64,000 nt of DNA from Apostichopus japonicus (lineage: Eukaryota > Echinodermata > Holothuroidea > Aspidochirotida > Stichopodidae), in assembly GCF_037975245.1 (NCBI RefSeq), contig NC_092577.1, positions 14,344,513 through 14,408,512 on the forward strand. The letters run 5' to 3'. The notes below the pieces were generated by a model that saw nothing but the letters and a program-made list of their open reading frames with translations, did not search any database and had not been told where the DNA came from. The position numbers were made by a program, and so were the translations under genes. This document shows positions 1,901 through 37,296 of the stretch, in pieces (the stretch's first letter is position 1; each line of letters opens with the position of its first letter).

Positions 1901-1917
1901 CAATGGCAGAGTCCAAG

Positions 1918-1945
1918 CAGGGAGTTGTTATTGAACAACTCCCTG
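1918..1945. repeat. Perfect 12-bp hairpin, copy 1
   Basis: CAGGGAGTTGTT, a 4-base loop, then AACAACTCCCTG: a perfect 12-bp stem. The same stem with a different loop recurs at 10163-10191, so this is a dispersed hairpin repeat and not a chance palindrome. Confidence 0.8.
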
Positions 1946-2530: not shown

Positions 2531-2599
2531 ATCTTTCGCCGTTATTTTAAAGAAGAAAAAGTTCATCCGTATCATATATATGAAATTAACACATTGTCA

Positions 2600-2802: not shown

Positions 2803-2809
2803 ATTGTCA

Positions 2810-3985: not shown

Positions 3986-3989
3986 TAGT

Positions 3990-6010: not shown

Positions 6011-6043
6011 GGGTTAGGGTTAACCCTAGGGTTAACCCTAACC
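6011..6043. repeat. Palindromic telomere-like repeats
   Basis: GGGTTAGGGTTAACCCTAGG followed by GTTAACCCTAACC: TTAGGG and CCCTAA units alternate head to head. This is a very short interstitial telomere-type block. Confidence 0.8.
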
Positions 6044-6531
6044 TATGGTTTCCCCGGTCCACAAGATACATCATTCATTGTTATGGGCTGTATCATGCAT
6101 GATGACATTGCTCGACATATTAATCTGTGTACAAAACGATTCTCTTGAGAAATACTGTCACGTGGGGGAGGATTGGCTGCTAAAATGAAGAACTTCATAT
6201 ATCATGCTTTCATTTCCTTACAGTGTGTGTTCCATTGTTGTGAAGAGTGTCACTTGGTTTATACAACAAGTTTGAGAGAGGGTATACCAACTGGCTGGTG
6301 TAGGACATCCTTTGGCTTTCATGCTTTGCTACACTGTGTTTCATGATTTTCAATATTACCGGTTTGATGAGGACCCTTCATATACTGTGGTTCTGTTGTC
6401 TGAGAAAAGAAAAACCTTGCTTACTTTAACTATACTGACTATAAATTGCATAAAAAACACTTAATTAACAAGCAGTCCATCCTCAGGTGATAATTAAGTT
6501 GTAAAACTGGTGTTGCTTGTTCTATACACAA

Positions 6532-7620: not shown

Positions 7621-7699
7621 ATACACACTGCATATAGGCTATACTATATACCATTCATAAACTAAGCACTACAACTAATTAGGTCTAAAGTATATTCAA

Positions 7700-9400: not shown

Positions 9401-11070
9401 TTTGTTTGACACAAGTTATTCTCCAGTGTTTTTTTTTAATAGAACGAAATGTGTAGCCTATTCTCATAGTATTGTCTTTGAAGGGCGGAAAATCCTGAAA
9501 ATGCTGCCATAGTTCGTAGTTATAGACATATATAGTGGATTGCAATACGACAGACAAATCAAAGCCAATGGCGGAATAGGATCATTTTAGAGAATCTTCA
9601 AGCGACTGCATGATTTAAAATTCTGAAACACATTCGCACAATCACAACGCATGAAGTGATCTTTATTCTTACAGGGAATTATAATTGGACAACGAAAAGC
9701 GTGAATTATTGAATGGATATAATCGTGAATCTACGGCTTTTTTCCTAAATAATAATTCTTGTGTCAGGAGGTCAGTAATCATTTATAGATTAATAAGTGA
9801 AAAGAATCAAACAAAATGCAGCTGTGATTGTCTTTAATTCAAGAATTATCTTTGATTATACGATTGAGTTTGATAGGATTTCGTTTGATGCTGCAATGGA
9901 GTTAGATGCGTAGCCGTATACTACACTCGATGGTGCTATATCGGTTTTTTTTTCATGTTGCTATGGAAACGTTTAAGGTGCCGTCACTTAAAGGTTAAAG
10001 TTAATACAGAACTGGCTCAATGATATTACAATGTCATTCCCCTATTTAAAGCTAGATTCGTTAAGTATCGCTCGCACACTCAGTTCATTTTCGTATGTAT
10101 ATGTAATGTGCACAAACAAAGGTTAGTGAACGACATACAGTCACGTGTGGGTTTGGTGTAAGCAGGGAGTTGTTTCCATAACAACTCCCTGGTGCAAGTC
10201 TATACCAATGAACAGAAAAAAAAAAACTCCGAACACGTTCGATATAGTCTGTAATCATGTAGTCCTATAGGCTGTTATACTTAACGAGTTTCTTGAAGGT
10301 ATAAGCCAAGATAATCTAACCCGCGTAATTTACTATTGACTAAAGCCACTGCTACGATTAGTGAATCCGTACTGTATTGAAGTTAATTGTGTGCGCCCTC
10401 TTTTCAATTTTACACTCAGATATATCAAATGCAGTTATCGGCACAACCTTGCGGAACAGCCTATACCTAAGTTAGAACCTCATTAAAAGACTAAAACTGC
10501 CTCTGCATACAAAATTTCACGCCTTATGTTTTTTTTCTGGTGGATTCCGCTTCAACGATTCACACCCCCCCCCCCTACATTTGAAAATGATTGATATGCC
10601 CCTGGTAAACAAATCACTAAAATTTTTCTGTTAAACAATTTGACTGTTTGAGGGTACGACTTAGCAACGACTTATCTACACACATCCACCTCCTTTTTTA
10701 CTTCAGTCATGTCAAATTTGTGTTTCGCATTTGCATTGCCGAATAGTGGGCCCCCAATTATTGCCCGATACGTTTGGAAATATATATCGAGCATATCGTA
10801 TTTGATGGCCATGGAAGTACTATTATTGTTTACAATTTTGCAATAGCGCCCTCTCTTAAAGAACTAAAACTTTATCTCGCCATAAAGCAAGGCCCTTTTT
10901 ACATTGCAGTTAGTGTTACAACACGTGATAAGACTCATTGTAAGCTCATATCACATTTGAATCTAGTACAGAGGTTAACAGTAGGAGACTCGCGAGTTAA
11001 TTAAAGCCAACCAGCGAAAGATTTCAGTCTGGACCCCGACAAAAAACACACACAAAAAAAGGCTCACAAT
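9400..11070. other. Intergenic stretch without recognised gene
   Basis: AT-rich sequence. It contains the second hairpin repeat at 10163-10191. I recognise no exon or RNA gene. Confidence 0.4.
10163..10191. repeat. Perfect 12-bp hairpin, copy 2
   Basis: CAGGGAGTTGTT, a 5-base loop, then AACAACTCCCTG. The stem is identical to that at 1918-1945, and the flanking bases AAG before and GGT after are shared. Confidence 0.8.
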
Positions 11071-11087
11071 CTTGCAGCGTACGGGAA

Positions 11088-11341
11088 GCTTAATTTTTAT
11101 TCTTAGGACGAATAAGGGTTTCAGGTTTTTCATGAATTTACAAATTCTTTTGAAATCAGAGTTAGGGTTTAGAAAGTGGGTTAGGGATCCAGTTCCTGTG
11201 AAAATGAAGGATTGTCGGTCATAATCTGGGGTCAAAACTAGGAAAAATGAATCAGAACATGTTTTTGAAAAAGCGTCACATGTTTGGAATCCAGGGATTT
11301 GATTGGCCGATGCCCTTATTCGTCCTAGGAACAAAAATTAC
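11088..11341. mobile_element. MITE with 11-bp target-site duplication
   Basis: The termini GCTTAATTTTTATTCTTAGG and CCTAGGAACAAAAATTAC are imperfect inverted repeats that extend inward through GACGAATAAGGG / CCCTTATTCGTC. The direct repeat GCGTACGGGAA flanks it at 11077-11087 and 11342-11352. It has no coding capacity. A duplication of 9-11 bp is usual for Mutator-like elements; this assignment is inference. Confidence 0.75.
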
Positions 11342-12075
11342 GCGTACGGGAATGCTGTCTCATAAACTCCGTCAAAATACTGGCCTTCCCTGCACATTGT
11401 TCGATCTACACATAGGCAATATAGTCAGATTTGTACATCCTGGGTTTTTTGCTGTAACCAATGTTTCTCTCCGACTCTGATAGAAAGTTAATTTATAAAA
11501 CAATAAATCATGAATTCTACGTATCCGAGACAAACGAGAGTGGATACTGAGCTTACTTTTTCAGTATAATGGAACAATATATGCCTTAATTTTGTGGATG
11601 GAAAACTATGTTTTAATATTTAATTGTCTCATTGAGTTCATACCGCTTTGCTTCTGACATGCCTAGTTTCCATGGAAACCATACAGGAGACAGCAATGAT
11701 GTACTACAACCAACACAGCAAACAATCAAATATATTCACATTAAAATAATTACATGAATACCTCCCTCTTCAAGATATTAGTGGTTAGCTGGTTAAATGA
11801 CTACACTATCAAGATATAATGTATTCGGTGTTATTATAGCGTGTAACCTTCAACAGTGTTATTAGGGTCGTACCTGCGGTTTACGAACGTTTAACTCTTT
11901 CAGCATGGCCCTCAATAACCACACAGATATCAATACAACAATGTTAGGCTCGGACAATGGATTTATCTATCGGTTCATTTTTAATGAAGCTCTGGGTGTA
12001 TTGGTCCATTCATATATGCATTGGTAGGGGGTAAGGGTAGTTCACGTCGGTCGGCGATTTTCAACAGACTGTGGT

Positions 12076-12205
12076 AAATTCGACCTCCGATTTCGATATG
12101 ACGAAATCTGAATTCGACATGACGAAAGCTGAATTCGACATGTCGAATGCTTAATTCGACATAGAGTGTTCAGTATTCGACATAACGTATGGACAATTCG
12201 ACATT
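12076..12205. repeat. Degenerate repeat of about 21 bp (AATTCGACATGACGAAAGCT)
   Basis: About six diverged units, each containing ATTCGACAT. The hAT-type element at 12264 lies just to the right, and a related GACGTC/TCGACCT stretch continues beyond it. Confidence 0.75.
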
Positions 12206-12263
12206 CCTGGACATAATCTAACATATACCTTCGGGTGATATCCGACATGCCGTCGGTTATTGT

Positions 12264-12760
12264 CAAGGGCGGCGGAACCGGGGGAGGGGCACATGGGGCA
12301 TGTGCCCTCACTTTTCCTCAGGTTAAAAATGTGCCCTTTTTCTACATAAAAACTGTACTCTTGATCACCTTATTAGGTCAGCGATATTTCAGTAAGAGAT
12401 CTAATCCTAATTTAGAACTATTAATGAATTTCTGTGGGTCAAACTCAGAGCTATTTCGAATGTAAACAATTTGTTAAGCTCTTAACAAGAAATAAACTCT
12501 AATGATTTCACCTCATTTTGTCTCGAAAGTAAACTTGTTCCTTGTTTCCCTATTTGCAGTGCTAGTATGCATTTTTTCCTTGAAGGGGGGGGGGGGGCGG
12601 CGTTGATGGAGTGATGCGTATACGCAAATAAGATAATACAATAAGAGTTACAATGGGTTCTAAATATCAGGCTGCGTCAGTCCAATCGAATTTCTGCAAA
12701 GTGCCCTTCGACGTCAGTGCCCCCCCCCCCCCCAGATTAAAAGTGCTTCCGCCGCCCTTG
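12264..12760. mobile_element. hAT-type MITE with perfect 8-bp duplication
   Basis: The ends CAAGGGCGGCGGAA and TTCCGCCGCCCTTG are perfect 14-bp inverted repeats. GTTATTGT flanks both sides (12256-12263 and 12761-12768). It is 497 bp long with internal G and C runs and a CACATGGGGCATGTG palindrome, and no transposase. It lies about 600 bp before the first detected exon of the receptor gene. Confidence 0.9.
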
Positions 12761-13389
12761 GTTATTGTCGACCTAAAGGATGTAGTCTGCGTATCGGTCG
12801 ATTGATAACAAATTTAGCTTTATTTGTTTTGATCCGGCTTCCAGTAAATTAAAAACATCTTGATAAGAGGGTTGCAGAGGGAGACCATCCAGGTGCATCA
12901 TTCAAAGAGTTCACATTAATACATCAGATTAATTGCAAAATGCAATGCCCATGAAAGTAAAGTCTTTTAAAACTAATGCTATATGGACTGATTCGACATT
13001 ATTCGTAAAGAGATATAATTTAACTCATATAGGTTGTGCTCAATAGAATATACTTTCCACTATGTCATGCAGACAATTTATCAAAATTGTTATTTAAACA
13101 ACAGATTATTCAAATGAAAATCTACCATCGAAATGTCTCACAGAGGACTTAAGCTATACACATTGAACGTAACTCAAATACTTAACTTGGGTTAAAATTA
13201 GAAGAGGATATGGGGGGGGGTGGGGGTGGGGGTGGGGGAGTGAGAAAATTGATGTACTATTCTACCAACACCGATGCAAGTTGCAAAAACTTAAAACAAG
13301 GTGTCATCTTTGTCAAGTCCTTCACAGATATGGAAATTATTTGTTGGTAACTTTATTTTCCTTTTTTTTTATTGTTTTTATTTACGCAG

Positions 13390-13701
13390 TACCTCCAACG
13401 ATGTCGCTAAAGGTCAACGGAGTTTCACTTAATCAATCTTCATTCTGGGTTCCCCAGAATGAACTAATGGTTATAACGTGCTTTGCTTGGGACGCGAGGC
13501 CGAAGGTGAACCTTTCCTGGGTTATAAATGATCATGATAGAATCTATACACAAACTAATGTAACAGAAGGTGATAGATCAACGTATAACTCAACATCACT
13601 GCTGGAACATACACCAACAAGTGAGAATGAAACTATTATCTGTTATGGTAATAGCGTGACGTCATCAGAGTATAACGTGGGAGTGTCACTCTATACATAT
13701 G
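13390..13701 (+). CDS. Receptor exon: Ig domain 1
   Basis: 312 bp, phase 1 to phase 1, between a T-rich tract with acceptor TTTACGCAG and donor G|GTAAGT. It encodes about 103 residues with the Ig pattern: first Cys in [11 protein letters not shown], core Trp in NLSW, second Cys in ETIICYGNS. Several N-glycosylation sites are present (NQSS, NLSW, NVTE, NSTS, NETI). A 1-1 phase exon is typical for Ig domains. The open frame continues upstream to an ATG at 13281 with a hydrophobic run, but that run is the polypyrimidine tract translated, so I do not use that start. Confidence 0.9.
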
Positions 13702-16700
13702 GTAAGTTAATATCATCAAGTATCACAACACCCTTGATACAAATCACCTGAAACACACAGAAAACACAGTTACTACTGTAAATCTTAAAGTTGTGTACCA
13801 AGTGAACACTGGATTGTGCTACAAATATGTAGCATGTGCTATTAGGATTACAGTAAGAACTGAGGATATATGTAATCCCAACAAATCCAGTTTGATGCAT
13901 TTGTTGGGATTACACGTATCCTCAGTTCTTACTGTAATCCTTATAGCACATGCTACCATTTATCATATTTATCAGTAGTACAGTAGTTACTGTAAACACT
14001 GTGTGAATTGGCTGTAAAAATCATAGCATCACAAATAAAGTATCAGAACACACTTATGGTAAGATTACAGTATCAGCTATCAAGTGCCAAATATACGTAC
14101 ATACATTTTGGTAAGACCAGGAAAAATGTATATGTTGACGTGTGACACGATCAGACAAACTTGATATTGACTCGAGGAATAAGTATATTGTAGTGTCCAG
14201 ATCGTTCTGCGATAATCAATTACACTAAAGCTTTGCCGGAGACCGGAATATGTTAATATTCATAATGATGGCAATATATTTATGTTCTACGCGAAAATAT
14301 AAGTAGCACATGATGGTATATACCAAACCTTTGAAACTTTTTCACGAACATGACGGATGAATGTTTTGGAATGTCGCAGATGATGCCAAGCAAAACACTG
14401 TTCAATGTAAAACACTGAACTTAGTCTATATATGTTTTAGCACATTATTTAGTATGTTAATGTTTTCATAGCGTGAACACATTAGTTCGCTTGATCATCA
14501 TTCTTAATATAATATAATAATAATTAACAATTCGCTGTTTAAGGTTATAATCCGAAACATAACTGGAGAAGTATCGCTATTCCCAGTCTGTTACTGTCTG
14601 AATTATTATTTTTTTTTTCGTTCAAGTCCACAATATTCAAACTAAATATCAATTATCCTATTCATTTCTACTTTAAACGAGTGAAAATATAACAATAAAC
14701 CATGTTTAAGGTGTGTCTGATCAAGCTAATCAATACTTACTAGATGAAAGAGTTAATTGTGTTTAATCTTTTGGTTGATGAAAGTCTTTCCAGAGCTTTA
14801 CATAACTTTGAATGGAGAAAGAGTCGAGAAGAAATATGTGAATTCTGGAGAGAATTTGAATGTAACTTGTCATGCTGTTGGAGCAAGACCTACAACATTG
14901 TTATCATTCAACGACCGCAATGAAGTTGTGACTGAATTGCCCCCACCGAGCACAAGTACGTCCACGTCAAGAATCTCGTTTCTTCTGATAAAACGGCTGG
15001 AAGAAGAGACTATTACATGTACGAGTACACAAGGACGAGAGAGTGAATCTGATCTCACGACATTTGTCACGGTGACAGTTACTGTGTCCGGTAAGCGCAC
15101 ATCCCCCCCCCCCAAAAAAAAAAAAATCCACCACATTATGTAGACACAATATGTCATTCTTTAACGTTGTTACCAACTGAAAGTCTTAAATAGACAGTCT
15201 GTACTTCGAGGCGAATGATCTCAGGGATTCATATTAAAATGGTGTGCCCTTTCAAGGAGGAAATTCAATATGCGAGGGTTTTTCGATTATACATGAACAT
15301 AATACAACCAATGTCAGAATAAAGACGCTATAGGTGACGAAATCGTTTCTTTTTAATGTATTTAAATTAAGGCAGTTGGGAAAGTTAGGAAGAGTACAGC
15401 ACATTGTAATAGAAAAAACTACGCGTACGGAGTTTCAAAACTAAGTTTAAATTTAAATGTCGAATATGAAGTAATGCTACAAATTTTGCTTTTCCGCGTT
15501 TCCCACATGATTTCTGTGTTTCTACAGTGTCTATTTTTAGCTTTAGCTTTTCAGAGCATGTCTTTATGCAGAATTATAGATTTGATCTTTGCAGAATTAA
15601 TTCTTATGCAGAATTATAGATTTGATCTTTTCATAACTATGTTATAGTTCAAAGACCAAGAAAGTAATACCTAATAATGACTGCTAGTAATATTTTCATA
15701 TCTATCATGTCTTCAAGATATACGACTTTAAATCTATGGAAATTCCTCGTTAGGGCTAAATGGAGGATGACGTCGGCTCCTCATTAAATGCGCTATAATG
15801 TTACAGTTAATACATTGTTGTAATAAAAGTCCAATAACTCAACCAGAGCATCATTTGATACCATTCAGCACATTAATTTGTCCTTGCGCAATTTGTAATA
15901 CTTAATAATAATAACAATTTAATAATTTGTAATATAATGGTGTAAACATTCCATTGGAGGCCATCAAAGTCTTCTGATTACCCACTGAGTCTTGTATTGC
16001 ATCTGAGGAATTGTAATATTGGTCTGTGTATTAGACTGCATAGTTCAGTCACTTTAATCGAAGTGTTTAAAGGGAATTTATATATATATATATAATAAAG
16101 ATATTATATAATATACAATATAAAATTAAGATATCATAAAAAAGTGGTATATAAGTAAAACATGATAATAATATCAGTGTTTTCTAATTGTATGTAAACA
16201 TATCGATGTTAGGTATGTCCCTCAAGTCATCTCTCAATATGGAAAGTCCACCTTATGATCACATTTTCAAGAGCACATATACCTCAATATGGTTTTCCTT
16301 TGAGTGATGGAAATAACTCAAAACGTTTATTAAAGTATACATTCATTTCATTCTCTGCTGTCTTTCAGACGAGTCGACCACACAAACAACAACGGCTGCC
16401 GGTTTGTATTATCATGAGTGATTTATTCCATAACTTATGAATTTTTACCCGATACACATAGAGAATACAGTTACTACTGTAAATCTTAAAGTTTTGTACC
16501 ACAGTAAAAACTGGACCGTGCTATAATTCGGTAGCATGTGCTATTAGGATTACAGTAACAACTGAGGATATGTGTAATTCAACAAATCCAGTTGTTCGGG
16601 ATTTGTTGGGATTAAAAATATCCTCAGTTCTTAATGTAAACTTAATAGCACATGCTACCGATTTATCATATTTGTCAGCACGATCCAGTATTTACTGTGG

Positions 16701-19700
16701 TACAAAACTTTAAGATTTACAAAAGTTACTGTAATCTCTGTGTGAATCGGCTGGAATTTTACGTACGATACGGGTTCTTGTTACAAGAAAACAAAAAACA
16801 CTACAAAACGCTAAAAAGCTCCCAAAAAGTCTATCAATGATGATCTATGATAAAATATATGATTTTTTGCTTTTGTATTATTTTGACTAATTTGCATATT
16901 AATATTTGTTTGTTTGTTTGTTGTTTTCTTTCATTGTTTTGTTGTCGCTATGGAATGACCAATCAGTCATCATCTGATTGTAATATATAGACTGTACACC
17001 ACAAAATTATGTTTAATAAAATCACCCTTTGAATTCATTGAAAATGTATTATTTCAAAGTTCTGTCTTGTCTAATTCTTGCAATTAATTCTTTGAAATTA
17101 ACCAGCTACAAAGTATCATCGATTTTAATCTTTAAAAAAAAAAATAAAAACGGTTTCCATTTTGCATTTCATGAAATATTACCATATATACTCTTTCAGA
17201 TAGGCGAACAACAGCACCATCATCTTCAGGTTTTTCATTCAAATATTTATGTAATACTAATGAATACAATTAATTAAGAATGGTGTATCATTAGCAAATA
17301 ATGAGATAGAAGGGAATTTTATTGCTTATTATAAGATTTGGAATATCGCTAACTACACCCTCTATTTCTAATACCTTTTTCTTCGCTTTTCTTACTTTAA
17401 TTATCATACTTTTGTTACCTTAAGAGTTATACTTGGCAAATATAGAAAATATAGGAGTTAAGCGAACCTCTCACGTTATTCAACGTTTCGTTTTGTTAAT
17501 CTATTCCTTTTGTTGGTACAAGGGGATGCACTACTATGTGAAAATAATGTAACATAAATTAACATGTCCGTGATTGTATTGTAGGATGTGATAAGTGATA
17601 TATGATATAGAACCATGTTTCCATACATCTGTTAAGATATTTAGGTAATTCTTTATAATTTCTTTCCAGAATTTGACTATCTTCAATGGGCCATTCCTAG
17701 TTTCGCTGCTTTGTTAACATGTTTCGTGGTTTTCTGTACCTATAAGATTACCATCAAGATCCGAGGTAAGTTAAGTTGTTTAATCTCAACCTGGTAAGCA
17801 TGCGTAAGGTACAACTGTCATTAGTTGCTCATTAGTTGCTCTGCGGGTAAACGGTGCTCACTTACCTTCGTTAGAGTGCTTGTATCATGAGAGGGTCAAC
17901 AATAAAGTGAAACAAATCATGCAAGACCCAACACACCCCTTGTTTGAGCACTATATTTACAACCGCTCTGGACTGCGTTTATGCCCACCACGTACATTTA
18001 GGGCCCGCTACAGATATTCATTTGTGCCTAATTCTATCCATATATTTAATTCACAAGTGAGAAGATAAGTTTCTTATTTGTAGGACTTGCTGTTATTATA
18101 TTTGTATTACTGTATGTGTTTCGCAGTCTATTGATACTATATATACTATTGCTTTTTTTTTCGTTTACGACCTGTGTAAGCCGAATTTCCGATTGTGGAC
18201 AATAAATTCAATTCAATTAGCAGAAGAAAAAAAAAACATGATTGTGTTTGTACTTTATAAACCAATGAAAAGCACTAATTTGAAGTAGTTTAACGAAATA
18301 TCCATAGTAGATAATGATAGATAATTTATGCATGTGTAACATGACATTTTTCAATGCTCATTTATAGATCCATTCAATATCCAATAAATAAAGAACAATT
18401 TCCGTGTTGACGTTTTTAATTATTCTACATTTTTCTCCTTCCTTACAAATAGCTTCGATGTCGGCTAATTTGTCAACGTAAGACTTGTGTGTTGTTTTTG
18501 TTTCTTATTATTGTTTACATGCTTCTAAACTGCCGACTTTACTACATTGAGAGAAGCTTAAGTTTGTATTTAACTTTAAAATTGATAGTCATTCTCAGCA
18601 AAAAAGAACCAAACTTGGAATTATGGCCGTTATTGGTTGGCTATATGGATCAGTTTGATGTGGACAATTTATATTACATTGGTCAAGGGTGGTCACGTGA
18701 TTGAGTTATGGTTTATTTTATAACAAATACATGTTCATCCTTTCTATGGATCTGTAAATTGACCAATGGTTCTAAACATAAGGTCGAATGAATACACTGT
18801 TGATTTGAATTTGTAATTAATATTTATTTAGTTATCAGATTATTTCTACTGTTCAAACCTGCAAATAATTCTAAGAGAAGGTTTTTGATTTGGAGGATAA
18901 AACCTAACATAATATACGTTTTAAGGGAAACTGAATATTCCACAGCCAATAAAAAACACAAAACATACCTGTTATTCATATAGAGATGCAGATACAACGC
19001 CCGCTGGTACAACTCAACTACAACTCAACACCTTGCCGGCTGACCAATCACGTAAGTTCAAAAAGAAATATTTAATCTGTATTAGATATATAGAAATTGT
19101 TGATATGTTGATGATATCTCCTTGACTACTACATTTCTGTCTTTATATTAGTTTTACAGAAGCCGCCACAAGGGACTCTCCAGCACAAACAGAAGTAAGG
19201 ATGTTAAAGCATAAAATCAAACGCAATTGATAATCTAGGAATATAAATGATTATTTTTGTTTTTATTTTTATTTTTATTTTTATTTTTATTTAATTTTTT
19301 ATTTATTTATTTTTTTTTTGGGGGGGGGGGCAAAATTTAGAAAGCTGCATTAATGATCTGAATAAGTTAATTGAGGTTCGTTCAAGGGGCTGATTAATAC
19401 ATTTTACTGCAGACCTAACATTTTCTGTTAATATTTGTTATCACAATACCACATGTTACGTTAATGATGTTGTTTTAATTACCGAGGTATAACCATAATC
19501 GTGTATAACGTAAGCGGTGTATTCTGTATAAATTTGTAATATAAATGCGTTTGTTTAATTCACTTTCGAGTAGTTCAGACAGCTGGTGATAAATTTCTAG
19601 TTAACATTGTTTAACCTTCTTCTTCAACACAGGTAAGTTATGTTATGAGATCAATAATATCACCATATTTCTGTATTTTAATTTAGATCAGATCTTCCAA

Positions 19701-22700
19701 GTATTCCGAGCGAGGAAAGCAATTCCATTCATTCTAGCGGCAGTGAAAGCAGTAAGTTGATTTTAATTGATGCTAATTGATGCAAAGTGCATAATTTTAA
19801 ATTCTAAATGAAGAATGAAGACCAACATCAGTATCGGAGCTTTGTATTTTTAATGTTACATGTATCTGACAACATGATAATACAAATAACATGTTACATA
19901 AAACACAATGTTATATACCCTGACAGACATGTAACATTTAGATATAATTATGTACTATGTCCTCGAACAATGGTATGATTATCTCATGTCTTCTCGGCCT
20001 TTTGGCTAAGATCATGTGTAGTATCTGTTCCCTTTCGAGGGGAATGGTGATACACACCCGACGATGATCACACAGTCACAGTCTCGATGCAAGGGGACAG
20101 TCGTTCGGTAGTTTGGTTTTCGTGCCCAGGTTCTTTCCTGGGCGACTCTTTCTTAAAGAGTAAGATTATCTCATGTCTGATTCTTACTGTTAATATGTAT
20201 ACACTCTATGACCAAATATATTATATCAAAAAGTATATCGCAATTGATATATTTTCACTGGCTTATTTACCTAAGACACGTTAACGTGTTTTTCTTCTAA
20301 CGCTGCACGCTGCTATATATTTTACTTTACAGATTATTACTCTGCTGCCAAGGTAGGAGGGGCGAAGGATAGGATATTTAGTGCTAATGAGTTCTGCATC
20401 TTATTAAGTATAAAGGAAGGAACAATATACAATAGATGGATGGGTACTATCAAAATTTCCAGTGACGTCAAAAAATGCGCTGTCCTAACGACGATCGCAG
20501 GTAAAGTCGCAGCCTTATTGGTGTATACCTTTATGGTCAGCTGCGTGTTTCAAGGGTAAACAAAACTTCCGCATGTATTGAAGTATTATTTGCTAGGAAC
20601 GAAAACAGCGAATTGAAAGGTTTTAAAGCCTCATAATCTTAATAATATTCAATAGTCATAAGCCAAATTGGCCCGTTGACCTCCTCGAAGATTATACACA
20701 TTATGAGGTTCACAGCACTTAATAATATTAATCCGACGTCTGCCATCATTTTTTTGTTTAATTATAAATCTTTTAACTAACATATAAATGTTCCTTTCTA
20801 ATTGCTAACATCATGTGATATAAGTAATGTACTGCAATGTGCCCAACGTTGTTTAGTTTCTAACCCTGTTTTTTTTTCTGCATTAAGAGGGAGTTACGAA
20901 GAAGAAAATTATCCACTGGGATGCATTTGTTAAACGCACACTTGACCTGCCTAAGACCGATCATCTTACGAAAATTGATGGAATAGGAGTCGACAAAAGT
21001 GAGTTATTCTATTCCATCGCGTGGATGCCTATATATACGTTACACCTCCATACTAGTACAAGCCTACCACGTTAATATTGGCGATATCATACAGCAATGG
21101 ACTGGTGTAGGCCTAATACAACACTTTTTAACTCAACTTGCCATTAAAGCGTTTTCATTTAATAAATGATTAAAGTAAAATTTCGTGGCTTGAGAAATGT
21201 TGAATTCACGAGGTATTGCATAATTAATTTCTACAATTATTGAAATATTCATGATCTAGGTTTCTCAGTTTCATCAATAATTGCAAATCGTATTTGATTA
21301 GTAATCGCTACCACCGATAAAATTATCGGCCAAACGCAGAACCCTGTATCCAAGGATCTCCTACTATGTGTGTCATGTAGCATGTTATTACGAAGCATTT
21401 CCAATGACAAATCTCTAGGCCTATACCTGTTAGTTCCACCAAGTGTATTAACGGCGTGTAAGAACTATATCAACATAACATTAAATGCAAGATTGATCCG
21501 TCAGTGTAATGAGCCAGAAATTACTCTTCTCTGGGTTATACCTATATAGGCAATGGGAACTATGTAACCATAACAATCGAACCTGCGCTATGTAATATCA
21601 TCAATCATACATCACATTAGTAGTATGTTAATTCCTTCAGCCACCCTTTACCTCATCACTGAACACACTGTCTGTGAGACATTGGACAGCCGTCTTACAT
21701 TTGACCCGAGTTCACAAAGCAGTCCATTTTCAGTTTCGGATGTCATGAAACATATCGCTTCCATTTTGGAAGGACTAGAATGTTTGCAGTCGTTTGGGGT
21801 GAGTCGGCTGTATGGTCATGTATCAATATTAAAGCTGCTTATAAATGGAATTTTTACTAACAAAGTTGTATTATGATTCAAATTATTTAAGAATTACTTC
21901 GACGCTTGCGTTAGTGTGACAGTTGGGTTGTCGATTATGTCAACATAAAACAATCAACAACAAAGATGCCACACGAATATTTGAAGGGAAAACAATGTAT
22001 AAGGTTTAATGTATGAGCCGCATCGCATAGTCTTTTGGCAAATATGAAATTATTTGTGACGGCCATATTTAAGCAGTTCTTTGCGGCCAGAGTGTATGAT
22101 GACGTTTTTATAAAGACCGGTTTGTTCACAGCCTCATGGCAATTGTACAAATCTCTATTTCATATGCCCCTATAAATATGTTAGTTCATTGTTTTATTTA
22201 ATTATTCGTATTTTATCTTATATTCGAAAGATTCGATATAATTTAATTTTTCAATACATATCTGGTCCAATTAACGTTTAACAGTTTTTACATCCGGGGT
22301 TATCAACTAAGAAGATTTTATACACAAAGGAAGGAATCTGTAAATTATATGATTTCTGCCTTGCTGAAGATGCACCGAAGATAGTTGCTCTAAAGAAAAC
22401 ACAGGTGATGACCTTCTTAAACCAATTTTGAACGTCTAAATGAAGTCATAGTAATCGTTAATAATTAAAATAATTTTCAAAATATATTTTTTTTCTTGTT
22501 TAATTCCACCTCATGTATTGAACGAAGTAACATATACATGAAGAAAATCACGTTTAAGTCTTTATCAGAGTTAATCAATATTTCCGTGCAAACTAAAAGT
22601 TGTGGGCAACATATTTCATTAATGACCAAAAAAAAGGTGCCCTTCAAAGTAGAAAGAAAATATGAAACAATTTCCATCTTGGTTGCAGCTGTTAATTATT

Positions 22701-25172
22701 CAAGGTGGTTTCCAATTGTTTTAAACATATGAAAACAAAATGAAACAAAGGAATTAAAATTTAATACTATCCTTTTCAGTTGTAACTATACTATGAACCC
22801 AATGAAGCCAGAAAGATTGAATCATTGTAACAACTTTTAAACTTTCTTATTTTTGCCAGGTGAAAACATTCACCTTAAATCAGTTTCCTCCAGAATCTTA
22901 TTTCCGTAATGAATACACTGCTGAGAGTGATGTATGGACCACAGCTGTAGTAATATGGGAGATATTATCAAGTGGTAAATAAAATATACAAATATATTAT
23001 GTTTATCGAGACGTATCCTAAGCTTTGATCGTTATCATAATATAACATTGCTAGCATTTGTGTATGTAAGGAAGAAACATTTTGAAAAAAAGTTACAGTT
23101 CTCCGAACAAGATATGATTTATGTGACATGACGAACGAACGATGGCAATATTAGGATTTTTTATTTTCATTTATTTATTTTTATTTCCAAAGTTTCATAG
23201 CTGATTTTAAGACTATCAGTAAAAGCATCGTCTGTTAAAAGCGACCTACAACCTTTCCTTCGATCTAGAGAATAAAGTTTATGTTCCTAATATCTTAAAA
23301 CGCAAAATAATGTAGCTTCCGAAAGAAGCTGTAAGGGAATCAATGGTGTATCATGTTAATTCCATGCTTATTAAAATTTACGAATTTATTGTCGTAAATT
23401 TGTTTCCCTTTTGCAAATGATTAGATATAATATTTTGTCTTAAAATACAAAATAACCAGCTAAATATAAGTGACGATTCTCCGAAGAAATAGCATTTGTC
23501 ATATTTTATCTTCGGTTTTTTTTTAAGGAGAATCTCCTTTTCCAGTTGATGAAGATATTAAACCCTGTCAAGATGTTAAAGCACCGATGTTAACTTGGCC
23601 TCAGAATTATTTACAGCTAAGGTATTATTTGACCTACAAAATTAACTTAATATCATACCAATCGTTAATCATTTATTTTATCGAATTTAATATCAATCAT
23701 GTTAAATTATTGCAATAATTCACATGGAAATACGATATAAGAATAAATATATCATTCTCCCTTTCAACAATTGACTGGTATTGTCAAATACAAAGAACAG
23801 ACAAAAAAATCATGCAACCATGTTCGTACTTACGTGGTCGTACGTGAACATTTTTTACATGAGCACTATAACGCGACATACGTAAATGACCACCAACGTA
23901 TACAGTATAGTGAAACGATAATTATCATTCGGTTCAACCAAAAGCTTGTTTCAACTGTAATGCATGAAATGGCATATTTATATTAAAATTTAATAGGACT
24001 AAATATATGTTTTTTAGAACATAACTATTGGCAGTGTCTTGTACTGTAATAGCGGGGTGAAATCATAACCATTAACATTGTTTACCTTTGTTTAGTAATA
24101 CAGTCTGAAAGATATATTAAAATGACTTCTATACGATAAGCTTTGATCGCTTTGCAAACCGTTTTATTCCTAAGGTAGATAACGATAGCGTAGTAAAGGT
24201 ATATGCCATAGTAAATAGTACGTACAAAGGTAAACCAAAAGTTATATACATAGTAAAGGTATCTGCATAGTAAATAGTACGTACAAAGGTAAACTAAGGT
24301 ATTTATCATAGTAACAAATATGAACAAAGGTGAATCAAGGTATATGCATAGTAAATAGTACGTACAAAGGTGAACCAAGATATATATCATAGTAAAAACT
24401 ATGAACAAAGGTGAAACAAGGTATACACATAGTAAAGGTATATGCATAGTAAATATTATGCACAAAGGTGAACCAAAAGTTATTTATATAATAAAAGGTA
24501 TATGCATAGTAAATAGTACGTACAAGGTATAAACATAGTAAAAGTATATGCATAGTAAATAGTACGTACAAAGATGAACCAAGGTATTTATCATTGTGTA
24601 TTTTCTTACGGCAGAAACTTGATACTATTTGATTGTTGGAGTCAAACATGTTCTCTCAGACCTACAATTCATCATCTCAGAGAATCATTCAAAGCGGTAA
24701 GTAAAACTGTTAACAAAGTTATGTATTTATTTCAGAGGTATATAAAGACTTGTGGAATACACACACAAAATACAGTTTCATTTTTTTAACGTCCTAAAGA
24801 AAATATTACGTCCTAAAGAAAATATATAACTTGCAATTTTTATACCATCCAAGCCAATGTTTACGACAACCAGTTTTAATAAACGTGTGAATTATTTTCT
24901 CGAACAGTAAACTCTGCATGCTAATACTTTGTATCGTGGGGCGGGGGAAGGGGGGGGGGTCGAAAATGACACTTACCACGAGCCGATCAATATTCTTAAT
25001 TACTTAAAGATTTTCAGAACTAAGAGAAAAAAAGCTTTTGTTATAACCAATGGCCACCAATACATGTCATATCTTTTTGTGTTCGCAGATCTTCGAAACT
25101 TTAGTAGAAAACAGTTTCTACGAGATACCACTTTCCGAATTATACATACCAATGAGTGGAACTACTAATTAA
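13390..25172 (+). CDS. Ig-domain receptor tyrosine pseudokinase (gene span, 5' end missing)
   Basis: Seen: coding exons for two Ig domains, a Thr/Ser-rich stalk, a transmembrane helix, a short juxtamembrane part and a kinase-like domain with a 28-codon terminal exon. All eight kinase-region exons join in frame. Relative to active tyrosine kinases, VAIK reads CAVL, HRD reads HPG, the catalytic-loop Asn is Lys and DFG reads DFC. The glycine loop is not recognisable. PPES (for APE), SDVW and CW....RPT are kept, which places it in the tyrosine-kinase group. Known: such changes abolish or strongly reduce phosphotransfer, as in ErbB3-like receptors. Inferred: a cell-surface ligand-binding scaffold that signals through partners. 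The C-terminal tail has YEIP and YIPM; the latter is a YxxM PI3K-SH2 type motif. The signal-peptide exon was not found; it should lie upstream and end in phase 1. The FGFR/VEGFR-like Ig-RTK class is the nearest fit, but no orthologue can be named. Confidence 0.85.
13754..14005. mobile_element. Foldback MITE, copy 1 (receptor intron)
   Basis: The ends CACACAG...TTACTACTGTA and TACAGTAGTTACTGTA...CTGTGTG are inverted. The centre forms a very long stem: GTAGCATGTGCTATTAGGAT to its complement near 13955, about 60 paired bases around a GTTTGATGCAT loop. A diverged second copy lies at 16454-16744 in the same gene. Confidence 0.85.
14006..14793. other. Receptor intron between Ig exons
   Basis: AT-rich intron sequence after the foldback element, ending in the acceptor TCTTTCCAG. 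Nothing else is recognised. Confidence 0.6.
14794..15090 (+). CDS. Receptor exon: Ig domain 2
   Basis: 297 bp, phase 1 to phase 1. The Ig pattern has first Cys in [11 protein letters not shown] and second Cys in [11 protein letters not shown]. The usual core Trp is replaced by Phe (LLSF). The ARP after the first Cys is shared with domain 1 (DARP/GARP), suggesting the two arose by duplication. Donor G|GTAAGC. Confidence 0.9.
15091..16368. other. Receptor intron
   Basis: AT-rich, with a poly-C/poly-A stretch just after the donor and a 24-bp direct repeat (TTATGCAGAATTATAGATTT) near 15566 and 15604. No exon is seen. Confidence 0.5.
16369..16401 (+). CDS. Receptor small exon: Thr-rich stalk, part 1
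   Basis: 33 bp between CTTTCAG and G|GTTTGT, phase 1 to 1, read as [12 protein letters not shown]. It is short, but phase and composition fit an extracellular stalk between Ig 2 and the membrane. Confidence 0.65.
16454..16744. mobile_element. Foldback MITE, copy 2 (receptor intron)
   Basis: Colinear with the element at 13754-14005: the ACAGTTACTACTGTAAATCT start, the GTAGCATGTGCTATTAGGAT arm, the AACAAATCCAGTT centre and the CTGTGTG end. It is slightly longer and more diverged. Confidence 0.85.
17200..17229 (+). CDS. Receptor small exon: stalk, part 2
   Basis: 30 bp between CTCTTTCAG and G|GTTTTT, phase 1 to 1, read as DRRTTAPSS. The same phase as the neighbouring exons means it can be skipped without frame change. 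Confidence 0.6.
17670..17765 (+). CDS. Receptor exon: transmembrane helix
   Basis: 96 bp between TCTTTCCAG and G|GTAAGT, phase 1 to 1. It encodes [20 protein letters not shown] and then [12 protein letters not shown]: one hydrophobic helix followed by a basic stop-transfer sequence, which sets the N-out orientation. Confidence 0.85.
17833..18225 (+). mobile_element. LINE 3' end (receptor intron)
   Basis: An ORF at 17880-18068 reads like the end of a non-LTR reverse transcriptase: [20 protein letters not shown], then [10 protein letters not shown] before the stop. It is followed by an untranslated tail ending CAATAAATTCAATTCAATT, a typical LINE terminus. It is 5'-truncated, as usual for LINE insertions. 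Confidence 0.75.
18453..18477 (+). CDS. Receptor small juxtamembrane exon (may be optional)
   Basis: 25 bp between ACAAATAG and AC|GTAAGA, read as ASMSANLST. It changes phase from 1 to 2. The next exon offers two acceptors 8 bp apart (18983 and 18991), one fitting inclusion of this exon and the other fitting its omission. Confidence 0.5.
18984..19051 (+). CDS. Receptor juxtamembrane exon
   Basis: Read as [20 protein letters not shown] then QS, ending C|GTAAGT in phase 1. With the upstream 25-bp exon included the acceptor must be TAG at 18981-18983; without it the acceptor GCAG at 18991 keeps the same frame. Confidence 0.6.
19160..19194 (+). CDS. Receptor small exon, phase unresolved
   Basis: 35 bp between TTTTACAG and GTAAGG, read as [12 protein letters not shown], phase 1 to 0. 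The next certain exon (19687) cannot be entered in phase 0, so this exon needs a further microexon, such as 19601-19632 (phase 0 to 2), or is skipped with use of the acceptor at 19691. Confidence 0.4.
19687..19751 (+). CDS. Receptor exon: acidic Ser-rich juxtamembrane
   Basis: Read as [20 protein letters not shown] then S, ending A|GTAAGT in phase 1. The frame is fixed by the following kinase exon. Two possible acceptors, TTTAG (19686) and ATCAG (19691), give entry in phase 2 or phase 1. Confidence 0.75.
19992..20163 (+). mobile_element. U2 snRNA-headed SINE, copy 1
   Basis: The start CTTCTCGGCCTTTTGGCTAA, continuing GATCATGTGTAGTATCTGTT, matches the first 40-odd bases of U2 snRNA with about one mismatch. 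It then diverges into a non-U2 body and ends in a CCCAGGTTCTTTCCTGGG hairpin and a short tail. GATTATCTCATGTCT is duplicated at 19977-19991 and 20164-20178, the mark of target-primed retroposition. It sits in a receptor intron in sense orientation. Other copies: 34536, 30135 (minus) and 46985 (minus). Confidence 0.88.
20333..20500 (+). CDS. Receptor exon: kinase N-lobe 1
   Basis: 168 bp, phase 1 to 1, acceptor TTTACAG, donor G|GTAAAG. It encodes the start of the kinase fold. The glycine-loop position reads [13 protein letters not shown] with no GxGxxG, and the beta-3 lysine position reads CAVL, with Leu encoded at 20485-20487 in place of Lys. Confidence 0.85.
20501..20887. other. Receptor intron
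   Basis: AT-rich intron with no further feature seen. It ends CTGCATTAAG before the next exon. Confidence 0.6.
20888..20998 (+). CDS. Receptor exon: kinase N-lobe 2 (C-helix region)
   Basis: 111 bp, phase 1 to 1. It begins [20 protein letters not shown], corresponding to the C-helix region. Of the two AG options at the acceptor, only the one at 20886-20887 avoids an early stop. The conserved C-helix Glu that would pair with the beta-3 Lys cannot be placed confidently. Confidence 0.8.
21641..21798 (+). CDS. Receptor exon: hinge to helix E
   Basis: 158 bp, phase 1 to 0, acceptor ATTCCTTCAG, donor [24 protein letters not shown] matches the beta-5/hinge pattern (LYLITEY...L) of tyrosine kinases, and [12 protein letters not shown] matches helix E before the catalytic loop. 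Confidence 0.9.
21799..22284. other. Receptor intron
   Basis: AT-rich, nothing recognised; ends TTTAACAG. Confidence 0.6.
22285..22404 (+). CDS. Receptor exon: degenerate catalytic loop and DFG region
   Basis: 40 codons, phase 0 to 0. [12 protein letters not shown] stands where active kinases have FIHRDLAARNVL: Arg is Pro, the catalytic Asp is Gly (22297-22299) and the metal-binding Asn is Lys. YDFCLAED replaces ADFGLARD; the Asp is kept and the Gly is Cys (22357-22359). These are the main proof of pseudokinase status. Confidence 0.92.
22860..22974 (+). CDS. Receptor exon: activation segment end to helix F
   Basis: 115 bp, phase 0 to 1. [20 protein letters not shown] then [12 protein letters not shown] aligns with W-APES...YT..SDVWSFGVLLWEI of receptor tyrosine kinases. 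The structural Glu of APE and the Asp of SDVW are kept, so the fold is under constraint although catalysis is lost. Confidence 0.92.
22975..23527. other. Receptor intron
   Basis: AT-rich, with no repeat or exon recognised. Confidence 0.6.
23528..23621 (+). CDS. Receptor exon: helix G region
   Basis: 94 bp, phase 1 to 2, after TTTTTTAAG, donor GTATTA. It reads [20 protein letters not shown] and then [11 protein letters not shown], matching the G-x-PYP...LxxG.RLxxPxxCP-type segment in position, with WPQNY in place of the usual RPxxC. Confidence 0.88.
24190..24592. repeat. Degenerate tandem repeat of about 40 bp (receptor intron)
   Basis: Diverged units of GCATAGTAAATAGTACGTAC AAAGGTGAACCAAGGTAT recur about ten times. 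The long Tyr/Leu-rich minus-strand ORFs here result from the repeat. Confidence 0.85.
24615..24696 (+). CDS. Receptor exon: CW...RPT helix H-I
   Basis: 82 bp, phase 2 to 0, acceptor ACGGCAG, donor [26 protein letters not shown] matches the M..CW...P..RPTF pattern of tyrosine kinases, including the structural Arg. Confidence 0.92.
25089..25172 (+). CDS. Receptor last exon: C-terminal tail with YEIP and YIPM
   Basis: 28 codons with stop TAA, entered in phase 0 after TTCGCAG. It encodes the end of the kinase fold and a short tail, [23 protein letters not shown] (25143-25154) fits the YxxM consensus for p85 SH2 domains, and YEIP (25119-25130) is another possible SH2 site. The phosphorylating kinase would have to be a partner. 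Confidence 0.88.
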   Translation: MFETLVENSFYEIPLSELYIPMSGTTN

Positions 25173-25269: not shown

Positions 25270-25640
25270 GTGAGGGCGTTGTGGTCAAGTGGTTAAGGCA
25301 GTGGACTAGGGATCTAACATTACAGGTGCGAGTCCTGGCCAGATCATTGCGTTGTGTCCTTAGGCAAGGCGCTTTATCTCCATTGCCTCTCTTCACCCAG
25401 GTGTATCAATGGGGACTTGCGAGGTAACTTGTAAATATAGTTGCGTGCGCCGGTTTGTGGCTGCACCCTATGGGAAGTTCCCCGGGGGACACGTGGTTGT
25501 GTTGCACTGTGGTGCCCCAGGAGAGACTGATTGAATTGTGCACACTTTGGTGTGTAGGTGTGACAAGTTACCAATGACCAGGGTTAAGTTGTAAAGTAGT
25601 GTGAGAGGGCCTTGGCCCCGAACAAGACTGTAAACCTAAA
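25270..25640 (+). mobile_element. tRNA-derived SINE in the receptor 3' region
   Basis: The head GTGGTCAAGTGGTTAAGGCA has a tRNA A-box, and GGTGCGAGTCC near 25325 is a B-box. The body GTGTCCTTAGGCAAGGCGCT ... CACCCAGGTGTATCAATGGG resembles a core seen in many deuterostome SINEs (from memory, not searched). It ends in an A/T-rich TATA tail. Confidence 0.8.
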
Positions 25641-31578: not shown

Positions 31579-31609
31579 CACTTCCGGTTTGTTCTTTCGT
31601 CACTTCCGG
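31579..31609. promoter_or_regulatory. Two ETS-type motifs at the OATP stop codon
   Basis: GTCACTTCCGG occurs twice, 22 bp apart (31577-31587 and 31599-31609). On the minus strand this is CCGGAAGTGAC, the strong ETS-family core. The second copy contains the OATP stop codon. Whether it is regulatory is inference. Confidence 0.3.
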
Positions 31610-31888
31610 TCTGGTTCTACTGGCTTATAAAGGTAGAGAGAACACATAAGGGCAACCATAGTTCCAATCATTAAAAATTCACTGAGTATTAGCATCCGCC
31701 ATGACAGTTTGTCAGCATCGTAAATCCAACAAGATCCATTTCTAGTTCCCTCCTCGTCCGTCTGCCAAACGACGCAGGTACTGTCAAAGATGGCGCCAAA
31801 AATGATAGGCGCAGGGAAAGAACCAAATATCTTGGCGATTACATTTGTTAGACCCAGCGAGAAGGAACGTTGACTTTCTGGTACACAC
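31600..31888 (-). CDS. OATP exon 7 (last)
   Basis: 289 bp entered in phase 2 after TTTTACAG. CVPESQRSFSLGLTNVIAKI and GAIFDSTCVVWQ match the conserved OATP segment of helices 10-11. It ends ...YKPVEPDRK with TGA. Confidence 0.95.
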
Positions 31889-34800
31889 CTGTAAAAGAAG
31901 AAAACACATTTTAAAGATATTAAAGTTTATAGGTCTTATAACGTCATAGTTCGGGTGAGAGTTGATACCCTATTGTTTACGGCTCCTCATCCCCCTCCTC
32001 CTCTCTCTCTCTCTATATATGTTTTTTTTTCTGCGGACAACTGATTTAACTCATACTTAGACAAACAAAGACGTTTTCAATTATAATGCCATTATCACAA
32101 CATTTACTCTGCTGTTGCAAGATGCATTACTTGCATAAAAGATCTCAAAATTTGAAGAAAAAAAAATAATATCTTTGCTATACAAAATGCTATGAAGATG
32201 CAGTTTTGACCTAAAGATGCAGAAAAATTTCCAGGAATTTTTGCCTCCCCCACTTCTCGCCCTTCCCAAATTTAAAAGTATTAGCACAGCCTTGCGTATT
32301 GATCTAAATTTAAATCCAATTTATAGCTTAGATATGCCTCAGAATGAGTTTCTCTCAAGTCTGTTTATTTTATGATGTGGGCCGGCAACATCCCAAAATG
32401 TACTAAATGTATTAGTCTACATAGTCCAGTCACTTTAACTGATAAATCTCAGCTGTTTAAAGGGTGATTTCTCAATAATTAAATGTGCTATAAGGAATAC
32501 CACATAGACTGATGCAAGACTTTTTAATGGCATACAACAATAACTAATTTTGCGCCTAAAGACTTCATTTAAATATTCCTTTTAAAAGAAAAAAAAGGAA
32601 TATATACAGCCCGGTTAGGGGCAAACCAACCTGAGGGAGGCATGTAATCCGGGGATCGTTGGGAGGAATCCACTCATTATAATGAGAAACAGACCGACAA
32701 TAAACATATAAAGCTGAGGACAGGTCTTGGCTTCACACGAGCCCTTCAGTACAACAGTAGTATCTGGAACACACAGACATCCGCCATACGTCTGAAATAT
32801 GGAGAAGAGCCAAAGTTAAGAACGCAGTTACTAATAATCTGTCAATTTCATAATCCACAGAGAACGGTATAGTGGTTATACGAGTAAGGTCGATGGAAAA
32901 CCATGATTGAGGCGAGAATGACAGCATAGGAGTCGGGGTGGGATGGGGTGGGGGCGATGATTTAATGTATACGCGTGAAGGAAAGTTTCAAAACGGTATG
33001 AAGTCAATTTGAAAAAAAAATGAAAAACATTGTTGATGGATATAATATGAACAATCGCGTCATGTATAACATTAAAAACTGTAGGATAAACGGTAGAGGA
33101 GAAAATCAAACGTCACTATTTCGGTACTCACGTCGTAAAGTTAAGTAAGATGGAAGCAATATTGAAAAAAGTTTTTAATGTGAGCATGTGGATATTACTA
33201 AAGAAATGTCGGGGCGACGAAATGTGGAAAAGTGGAATATATTATTAAATTACTGTTAATGAGGATATTTAAAAATTCTTGCCATTGTTTGCAATATTTA
33301 CTTAAATAATCATAAGTATATATATGGTTTGGTAAGTTTAGTTGGAGAACAAAGGCAAAAAGAGAGCCCTAACACAAACAAACAAACACACGCACGCGCA
33401 GCTGTTTTTTACATTCAGACCGAGGACCACCTTTTTTTCATTGTTCAAATCCACTTACCCTTACCTTAAAATTACCCCTTAACAACAGAATTCTTGGACC
33501 TGTTTTCTTTTGTTCAAATCCTTAGTGACTACAAAACAAACGCACTCAAATACACGCAAGTGTGCTTTACATTTAGACTGAGGATCCCGTTTTTCAATTG
33601 TTAAAATCCACATAACCTTAACAATACCCCATAACGATAGAATTCTTGAGAGGACGTGGTGATTCTTAGAAATCACATCCGAGGACCCGGAAGTCTTTTG
33701 TTCAAGTCCTCAGTCAGAATACAAAACAAACGCACTCAAATACACCCAAGTGTGCTTTACTTCCAGACTGAAGATCCCGTTTTTTCTCGAAAACATATCT
33801 TCTGAGGACGTGGTGATCCTTTTTCAAATGACATCCGAGGACTTGGAATATATATAATCGTGGGAAGACCTGTTAATTTTTGTGTCAAAAGTCTTAAGGA
33901 AATAAATGCATATTCATAAAATTAAGTGTTTCTTGGGGCTGATTGGCCTTTTTTGTTTTATGCGTTCAACTGTCAACATTTTTAACGTTTTCTTTTTCGT
34001 CGAGTATGAAGCGGTATTTATGACATGACGAAATTAATTACGCATGCGGGAACTCCGATTTAAGGAAGAAATCTTGGCTATAACAATACGCCGCCAATGT
34101 ACCCCAATTAAAAATGCATAGTTAGTTATATTTAATAAACACTCTAATTTAAAAAATATCCACTATAAAATTTTAAAAGAAAAAGTGTTAATATTCGAGT
34201 AATATCTCACATCATTCTTCAAATCTACGGTGCAACCTGCATGACAAGGGCTGAAATATTCCAACTGGCCGTCCAGATAACATACAGGATAATGCTTTTG
34301 TGTGTCGCAGCCACAGCTACTAAAACATCCAGAAGAGAAACTGAGGAAGAAAAAAAAACATTTTGCTTGTTGTGATGGGGCTATTAAAGAAAATAATACC
34401 TGAAAACTTCCGTTTAATTTGAAATTATCGTGATAACTATATCAACATATTCAACGCGACATAAAATAAGAAAACTGCACATTTTATTGACCACATATAT
34501 GACATCAAGTTTAGTGTAGCAAAGATGTTAAAGGTGCTTTCCTGCCTTTTGGCTAAGATCATGTGTAGTATCTGTTCCCTTTCGAGGGGAATGGTGACGC
34601 ACACCCGACGATGATCACACAGTCACAGTCTCGATGCAAGGGGACTGGGGTTGAGAGCGGATCAGTCGTTCGGTAGTTTGGTTTTCGTGCCCAAGTTCTT
34701 TTCCAGATGACATTTTCTTCTCATGTCACCCTACCCACTATTCTTATTGTTCTCATCCCATCGCAGATAAGAACATCAAACTATTTATTTTCATTTTTCA

Positions 34801-37214
34801 AGTAGGTAATTAGAAACCGTTGACCCTGAATATAATTTTGTTAAGTAAATCGCAATGTCTACTGACCTATCATTCATCATTGACGGTGTCGATATATCGA
34901 CAAGATTCTCATTGGGGCATCGTAGCAATAGTGACAAAAGTACCAACATTGAAAATATCGATACCGCGATACAATATAATAGGTTGGATCGTATATCCCA
35001 TCGGAATTTCTTGACAAGCCATCCGCCGAAGATGTTACCACTGCAACCCCCTAAGATAATGGTCGCTCCTATGAAAGATAAATAAAACAAAGCCAAAATA
35101 CGCATGCGTGATTGGTGATTCTAGCGGTTTTTTGTTTTTTTTTACTTTTTTTTATTAAATTACTGCTTATGAATTTTACCATATGAGTATATGGACTACA
35201 CGATGTCTTTAGAATCACAAGAAATTACAAATAACTTGTGAAATAAACCTAATTTTTTTTTTTGGGGGGGGGGGGAAGTGAACTATATTGTATTGGTTTG
35301 ATGTATATAACTCGTAGTTGTTCTTTTCGATTAGTTTGGTGCACGCTGTATATGTTTAGTGTATGTATATTCACACGAAGTATACTACATGCTCTAAGAT
35401 TTGCGGACGGGAAAATGTTAATCTTGAATTGCTTTGAATATATGAATAGATACAAAACTAAGACTAAAATTGGCTGGAACTATTTTAACAGATATTCCTC
35501 TGTTACTACAAATATAATAAGTTCAGCAACTACTACTGGCATGCCCACTCCACGCACAAATCGTATACGTAACTCAACAACGTAAAACTGACCAATTGTG
35601 TGTTTGGGGTGGGGGGGGGGTTGGCACACCTCCTTTGGGGGAAAGCGTTCAGTCGGGGAATCACTTGCGTTCAGTCGAGGAAGATTTCGACAACCCCAAC
35701 GCGCCCAGGACGCCCTTGTGCGCGGATACAAAATTCAGAATGTGTATATAGTTCAGATACACTATTCTGGATTTGCACTCCAGCAACAATATTACTTCAG
35801 AAGAAATAAATTTTATATTCTACAATTATATCTATGTCTCGAGTTTCTATTTATCTGCTGTCCTACCTATTTCATGATTGAGCCCTGAAGTAATTGAGCC
35901 GGAGCACCCAAACGTAACATGTGTGTATGGGGTAGGGGAGGGGGGGGGCTTATACATCTCCTCTTCAACCTCATAAAAAATGGTACCATTTGAGCCCCCT
36001 TACATGCAGCTTGCCTTCAAAGACCCAAGCTACACCACTCAAGTACAAAATCCTGGACCCACCTCTGGCCCTTCCATCCATAACGGAGAATTAATTGCCC
36101 TACCTAAATCATTCGGCACTTTCATATTACATATAGTCCCGTCCTAGAAGGGCATTTGGCCCATAATTTTGACATAATACTTTTTTTAAATATTTTCACT
36201 AAAGATTAAGTCATGTACTGATACAGGTTGTATTTCGCAACGTCGACGGAAAAATCTGTGCAAAGCATCTGTAACATTCATAACATACCACGGCGCCACA
36301 TTTGTGCAATGATCTACTCAAACTGCAGAAAACATATCATGAAAACACGTCCTCCCCACCCCGCTCATACCCGACATCAGAGACGGCGGCCCAAAAGGGT
36401 TCCATCTCAGGGAGGGGTATGGAGAGTAGGTTGAACTTCGTAGGGCAATTGGACAAAATGTCTCGACAAAATAGAAACTCTCTTCATTCTGTTGCACAAA
36501 TGTCAGAATTTGAATGTTTTTTCAACAAAAGAGCATTTTTTTATTTGCTCTTTGTTTGAATCTTTTAACCAAAAGAGCACATTCGTAATTAAAACTGCTG
36601 TTATTCAATTTCTCAGCAAAACTTCACATCATTTTAAATGACAACCATGCACTGTTATGTTACAAAAATATAAAGATTAATGGTCCTTTTAATTTACAAA
36701 AACTTGCACTTTTAGCTTATAAAATGGAGCACTTTGATTTTTTTCTCGTAAAACTTGGGGTACTTTTCAAACTTCAACCCACCTGATGGCTCTCACCCCC
36801 TGTACAAAAATTAGCTAATTATGGAATGGAGGTATGCTGCCAGTATTACGGTTTTAAAAGGAACGACAGCATCATGGCACTTACCAACCACCGTAGCTGC
36901 AAACGAAGACGTCTGTCCAAATAGAGTTTCGACGAGTTTTGGTAAATAGGCGGCAAACCCAATTATGATCATAGCCTCGAAAATGGACACCACATTAAGG
37001 AACATCATCGTCGGATTACGGAGCAGCAATTTTAAGGCAATAAAGAAATCCATCGGTTTTTTACCAAAATCTGCTCTTGTCGATAAAATATCATCGCCTC
37101 CATTTTTGTGTGCTACGGATACTTTCCTTTCCCGTATTTCGGCAGTACCTGAAAATAATCAACGTAATACAATAATTAAAGAAGTTGTTTGTCGTTTGGC
37201 TGTGATTGACTTAA

Positions 37215-37296
<82 letters not shown>

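Follow-up and report, generated by a model that had tools for sequence, protein, structure and literature searches.

A putative receptor pseudokinase with a conserved YxxM tail is one of at least 69 related loci in the Apostichopus japonicus genome

When a receptor gene keeps the fold of a tyrosine kinase and loses its catalytic residues, is it decaying or has it been kept for another use? The question is raised by a locus of Apostichopus japonicus in a 64,000-nucleotide stretch of contig NC_092577.1 (assembly GCF_037975245.1, positions 14,344,513 to 14,408,512, forward strand), here called the window and numbered from its first base. The initial annotation of this stretch described one gene at 20333–25172, an Ig-receptor tyrosine pseudokinase with YxxM in its tail. 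In our model, 16 exons (window 13390–25172, + strand) splice into a single open frame of 622 amino acids ending at 25172, with AG at 16/16 acceptors and GT at 15/15 donors. The eight kinase and tail exons at 20333–25172 stand as annotated: their junctions are AG/GT, their phases match and no stop interrupts them. The Ig assignment held in part: the Ig domains are real (Pfam C2-set_2, 41.9 bits against a cut-off of 21, in two stretches) but lie outside the annotated interval, at 13390–13701 and 14794–15090. The kinase exons are preceded, in order, by two Ig exons, a short stalk exon, the transmembrane exon and four short juxtamembrane exons; the two extracellular Ig exons and the single transmembrane exon are in frame with the kinase exons. 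The protein thus runs from two Ig domains through a stalk, a transmembrane segment and a tyrosine-kinase-like domain to a tail. The exons, compared where indicated with paralogues from a set of eight (P1–P8), are:

13390–13701 (+): Ig domain 1 exon (Ig1), phase 1-1; AG/GT; C2-set_2; 71–77% protein identity to Ig exons of P2–P4
14794–15090 (+): Ig domain 2 exon (Ig2), phase 1-1; AG/GT; second C2-set_2 stretch, Ig_2 and Ig_3 below their cut-offs; 67–68% identity to P2–P4
16369–16401 (+): short Thr-rich stalk exon, tentative; frame kept; covered by DNA similarity to P2 and P4; weak donor (gtttgt)
17670–17765 (+): transmembrane segment exon; AG/GT; conserved in P2–P4
18453–18477 (+): juxtamembrane exon j1, 25 bases, tentative; AG/GT and frame kept in the window gene
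18984–19051 (+): juxtamembrane exon j2; AG/GT; present in P2–P5, weaker in P7
19152–19194 (+): juxtamembrane exon j3, 43 bases, tentative; AG/GT and frame kept in the window gene
19687–19751 (+): juxtamembrane exon j4; AG/GT; present in P2–P8
20333–20500 (+): kinase exon k1, beta 1–3 with degenerate glycine loop, Lys lost
20888–20998 (+): kinase exon k2, alpha-C, Glu replaced by Arg
21641–21798 (+): kinase exon k3, hinge to alpha-E
22285–22404 (+): kinase exon k4, HPG..K for HRD..N and DFC for DFG
22860–22974 (+): kinase exon k5, PPES and SDVW
23528–23621 (+): kinase exon k6
24615–24696 (+): kinase exon k7, DCW..RPT
25089–25172 (+): last exon k8, YEIP, YIPM and stop

For the window gene we found no signal peptide exon. 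In P2 and P3 such an exon exists and also encodes a further Ig-like domain, and an additional Ig exon lies on the 5' side of Ig1. No counterpart of these exons was seen in window 1–13388, and a genome search with them matched, near the window, Ig1 only; the 5' end of the window gene has thus diverged, been lost or gone unrecognised. Near the place that the 5' Ig exons occupy in P2 and P3, the window has a tandem repeat (8830–9170, HAHPGHYIT-type in three frames). Two similar stretches with inverted repeats (13760–14010 and 16460–16740) look by eye like mobile elements, a U2 snRNA-like match lies in the intron before k1 (19986–20062, +, 51 bits against a gathering score of 46), and directly 3' of the stop codon is a repeat that by eye is SINE-like and tRNA-derived-looking (25280–25640). 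Farther downstream, the window holds a full-length match to metazoan SRP RNA (38355–38653, +, 244 bits) and an OATP-type organic anion transporter (31600–40325, −), of which the open reading frames 31600–31926 and 39585–40325 match Pfam OATP and those between resemble additional exons.

The kinase domain matches Pfam PK_Tyr_Ser-Thr (PF07714) at 97.8 bits against a cut-off of 23.1, and the fold motifs PPES, SDVW and DCW..RPT are present as annotated. Its best solved relatives, by single sequence and by a seven-member profile, are FGFR1–3, a best-hit result rather than a phylogeny; in this alignment DFC stands opposite DFG, ten other residues stand opposite HRDLAARNVL, and the tyrosines of the activation loop are missing. 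To call residues we aligned the domain with L001–L003, three kinases from this genome in which Lys, HRD, Asn and DFG are intact. By this comparison the beta-3 Lys is replaced by Thr (Leu if the strand shifts by one), HRD by HPG, the catalytic-loop Asn by Lys and DFG by DFC, which bears out the four losses originally described, and the alpha-C Glu, which the initial annotation had passed over, is replaced by Arg. By its loss of the beta-3 Lys, HRD Asp and DFG Gly, together with the Asn and the alpha-C Glu, the domain classes by sequence as a pseudokinase. In the glycine loop the middle Gly alone is retained; glycines one and three are Lys and Tyr.

The window gene was taken for a single gene, but it belongs to a family that numbers at least 69 loci. 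A protein-level search of the genome (671.6 Mb, 35 contigs) gave at least 133 exon matches, of which at least 69, the window included, span k4; these 69 loci lie on ten contigs, 35 of them on C12, and the counts are lower bounds, 128 of 920 candidates having been scored. The catalytic Asp, loop Asn and DFG Gly are absent from all 69 k4 exons read, and a search for paralogues with a restored catalytic set among them found none. Where HRD has its Asp, 62 of them have Gly, six Cys and one Ala; the loop Asn is Lys throughout, and in place of the DFG Gly 68 have Cys and one has Tyr. These exons comprise 63 distinct DNA sequences, and at the His, Pro, Lys, Asp, Phe and Cys positions synonymous codons replace one another without a change of residue. 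Stop codons occur at two loci, in k4 of L049 and in k3 of P5. Because the loss is common to all 69 loci, the family probably inherited its inactivity from an ancestor that predates its spread. The search picked loci that resemble a dead query, and a divergent active sister could have escaped it. Among the 21 of 150 PF07714 places that were read for such a sister none was near, the best scoring 60 against k4, compared with 142–211 for dead members on the same matrix (a rough comparison of gapped local with ungapped scores).

Other kinase arrays in the genome have HGD for HRD (HGDLAARN) and keep the Asp (L079 at C18:8.72, L080 at C19:9.05 and L081 at C21:13.35 Mb), and many places in the PF07714 genome listing are similar to them. 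In paralogue P3 (C16:40241000–40246000) exon Ig1 is present twice, and at C16:39.94, 40.05, 40.08, 40.20 and 40.22 Mb there are pairs of V-type Ig and Ig0 exons with no scored k4 exon nearby. COX1 is present as a full gene on contig C35 and as fragments on C29; the C35 copy reads with table 9, with AAA at an expected conserved Asn and AGA at an expected Ser, which marks the animal as an echinoderm. Full-text literature searches found no paper on such a family, which does not prove the absence of a prior description, and a term search of a paper on the holozoan tyrosine kinome (PMC8662651) gave no mention of echinoderms.

Could these domains be catalytically active through an unusual mechanism? 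The DFG Asp is retained in 68/69 loci, and the Lys at the first glycine-loop position, invariant among the seven aligned members, recalls WNK kinases, which have a relocated Lys. With the catalytic Asp, loop Asn, beta-3 Lys and alpha-C Glu all gone, we regard activity as hardly credible.

Constraint on the kinase exons bears on decay. Over about 305–309 codons, dN/dS between the window gene and P1–P8 is 0.13–0.33, not relaxed to neutrality: 0.26–0.33 against P2–P6 (dS 0.30–0.35), and 0.13–0.16 against P1, P7 and P8, for which dS exceeds 1 and is near saturation. Fisher tests of synonymous versus non-synonymous changes gave p values of 3e-11 (P3), 4e-8 (P6), 3e-36 (P1) and 2e-30 (P7). Close pairs of the C16 group have higher dN/dS, up to 0.49 (P2 versus P4), and constraint may therefore be weaker on young copies. 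The kinase domain, on these substitution rates, is still constrained despite the stops at two loci. A decaying gene or pseudogene would account for the lost catalytic residues, the stops in P5 and L049 and the missing 5' end of the window gene, but it sits badly with sixteen exons in frame, with this constraint and with the same substitutions at 69/69 loci, and we judge it very improbable. Chance substitutions are excluded because 68 further loci share them and dN/dS is well below 1. The comparison thus supports a receptor pseudokinase with a conserved YxxM tail rather than a pseudogene. Two other ideas fell to the same measurements. P1, 45–49 kb upstream, was rejected as a recent tandem copy (dS 1.3 against 0.30–0.35 for P2–P6), and a hypervariable ectodomain is unsupported, as Ig1 (dN/dS 0.29–0.32) and Ig2 (0.43–0.64) evolve no faster than neutral between the window gene and P2–P4.

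The tail is the second conserved element. The last exon carries YEIP and YIPM as annotated, and we resolved 19 tails, namely those of the window gene, P1–P8, six loci found by tail query and four of six distant members. Recognition was not blind: P1–P8 were recognised by likeness to the window tail and six loci by the tail query, and candidate tails of the distant six were picked with a filter of motifs, YxxM among them. All 19 tails keep the Tyr and the Met of YxxM, with Tyr encoded by TAT in ten and TAC in nine and six different residues at the position after it. Pro precedes Met in 17/19. The upstream Tyr of YE[I/V/T]P has the same spacing in 18/19, the remaining tail (L096) reading YQVR. 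Of the two other distant members, the one at C16:41.7 Mb offers no more than an ambiguous candidate, in which YEKM occurs, and for the one at C12:24.92 Mb the motif filter gave no tail candidate.

A tyrosine followed at +3 by a hydrophobic residue in a C-terminal tail also fits the AP-2 (YxxPhi) sorting signal, and the family could consist of endocytic or scavenger receptors in which the dead kinase is merely structural. AP-2 YxxPhi signals accept several hydrophobic residues at the last position. Here all 19 tails have Met there; Leu, Ile, Phe and Val do not occur, whereas hydrophobic residues elsewhere in the exon vary, and the kinase domain is more conserved than a mere spacer would be (dN/dS 0.13–0.33). 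We therefore consider a sorting role unlikely. The receptors might instead be decoys or dominant negatives: by binding ligand or dimerising with an active kinase they would dampen the latter, and the tail would matter little. Many copies of a dead domain with intact fold motifs would suit such a role; a pure decoy has no need of an invariant YxxM, which makes this explanation distinctly unlikely.

Because the dead domain and the short signalling tail both stay conserved, the receptor has probably been kept as a scaffold. The fuller account that we favour, and hold to be moderately likely, is that the gene belongs to an expanded echinoderm Ig-receptor family whose kinase domain was inactivated before the family spread and was then retained as a scaffold recruiting PI3K. 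The dead kinase domain would serve as a binding platform, a use suggested by its conservation over dS above 1. On engagement or clustering of the ectodomain, an active kinase would phosphorylate the tail tyrosines; it would have to act in trans because the receptor cannot phosphorylate itself. The phosphorylated YxxM would dock the SH2 domains of p85 and so recruit PI3K, and the neighbouring YE[I/V]P may dock another SH2 protein. Docking of p85 is favoured because the +3 residue is Met in 19/19 tails, where an AP-2 signal tolerates several hydrophobics; the genome has two matches over the cut-off to p85 inter-SH2 exons. Against the scaffold reading stand the stops in P5 and L049, the fit of YxxM to the AP-2 motif, the one ambiguous and one unfound tail among the six distant members and the missing signal peptide exon.

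The proposed scaffold recalls several known receptors. In ErbB3/HER3, likewise a receptor pseudokinase, YxxM sites of the tail serve PI3K; of that mode of action we see here the conserved motif and, in the genome, a p85 gene. ErbB3 is a lone gene whose product combines an EGFR-type ectodomain with several YxxM; the present family numbers at least 69 loci, has an Ig ectodomain and a single YxxM, and shows a heavier loss of catalytic residues. The ectodomain of the window gene is Ig and not of the ErbB type, and its kinase domain is by best hit nearest the FGFRs among solved kinases, not ErbB. With receptors of the FGFR/VEGFR/PDGFR type it shares an Ig ectodomain, a single transmembrane segment and the tyrosine kinase fold, but it has lost the catalytic hallmarks listed above and the activation-loop tyrosines. 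PTK7, RYK, ROR and EphB6/EphA10 are also evolutionarily conserved receptor tyrosine pseudokinases; they number few genes per genome and are not known to form a big lineage-specific array. CD28, ICOS and CTLA-4 are Ig receptors whose short YxxM tail recruits PI3K, and unlike the window gene they are without a kinase-like domain.

Receptor pseudokinases are typically single genes. Here, one genome carries at least 69 loci for dead receptors whose inactive site is itself conserved (HP[G/C/A]..K and DF[C/Y]); they would amount to a natural experiment on kinase domains that do not phosphorylate, and a deep alignment of the family would help to locate the kinase-domain surfaces that matter. More tentatively, the sequences could reflect a lineage-specific repertoire, immune-like in copy number and variable Ig-exon number, with a kinase dead before the expansion, a PI3K output through the invariant YxxM and activation by shared active kinases. 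If the PI3K link is true, ligand sensing, catalysis and output would be split among different proteins, as in immune receptors.
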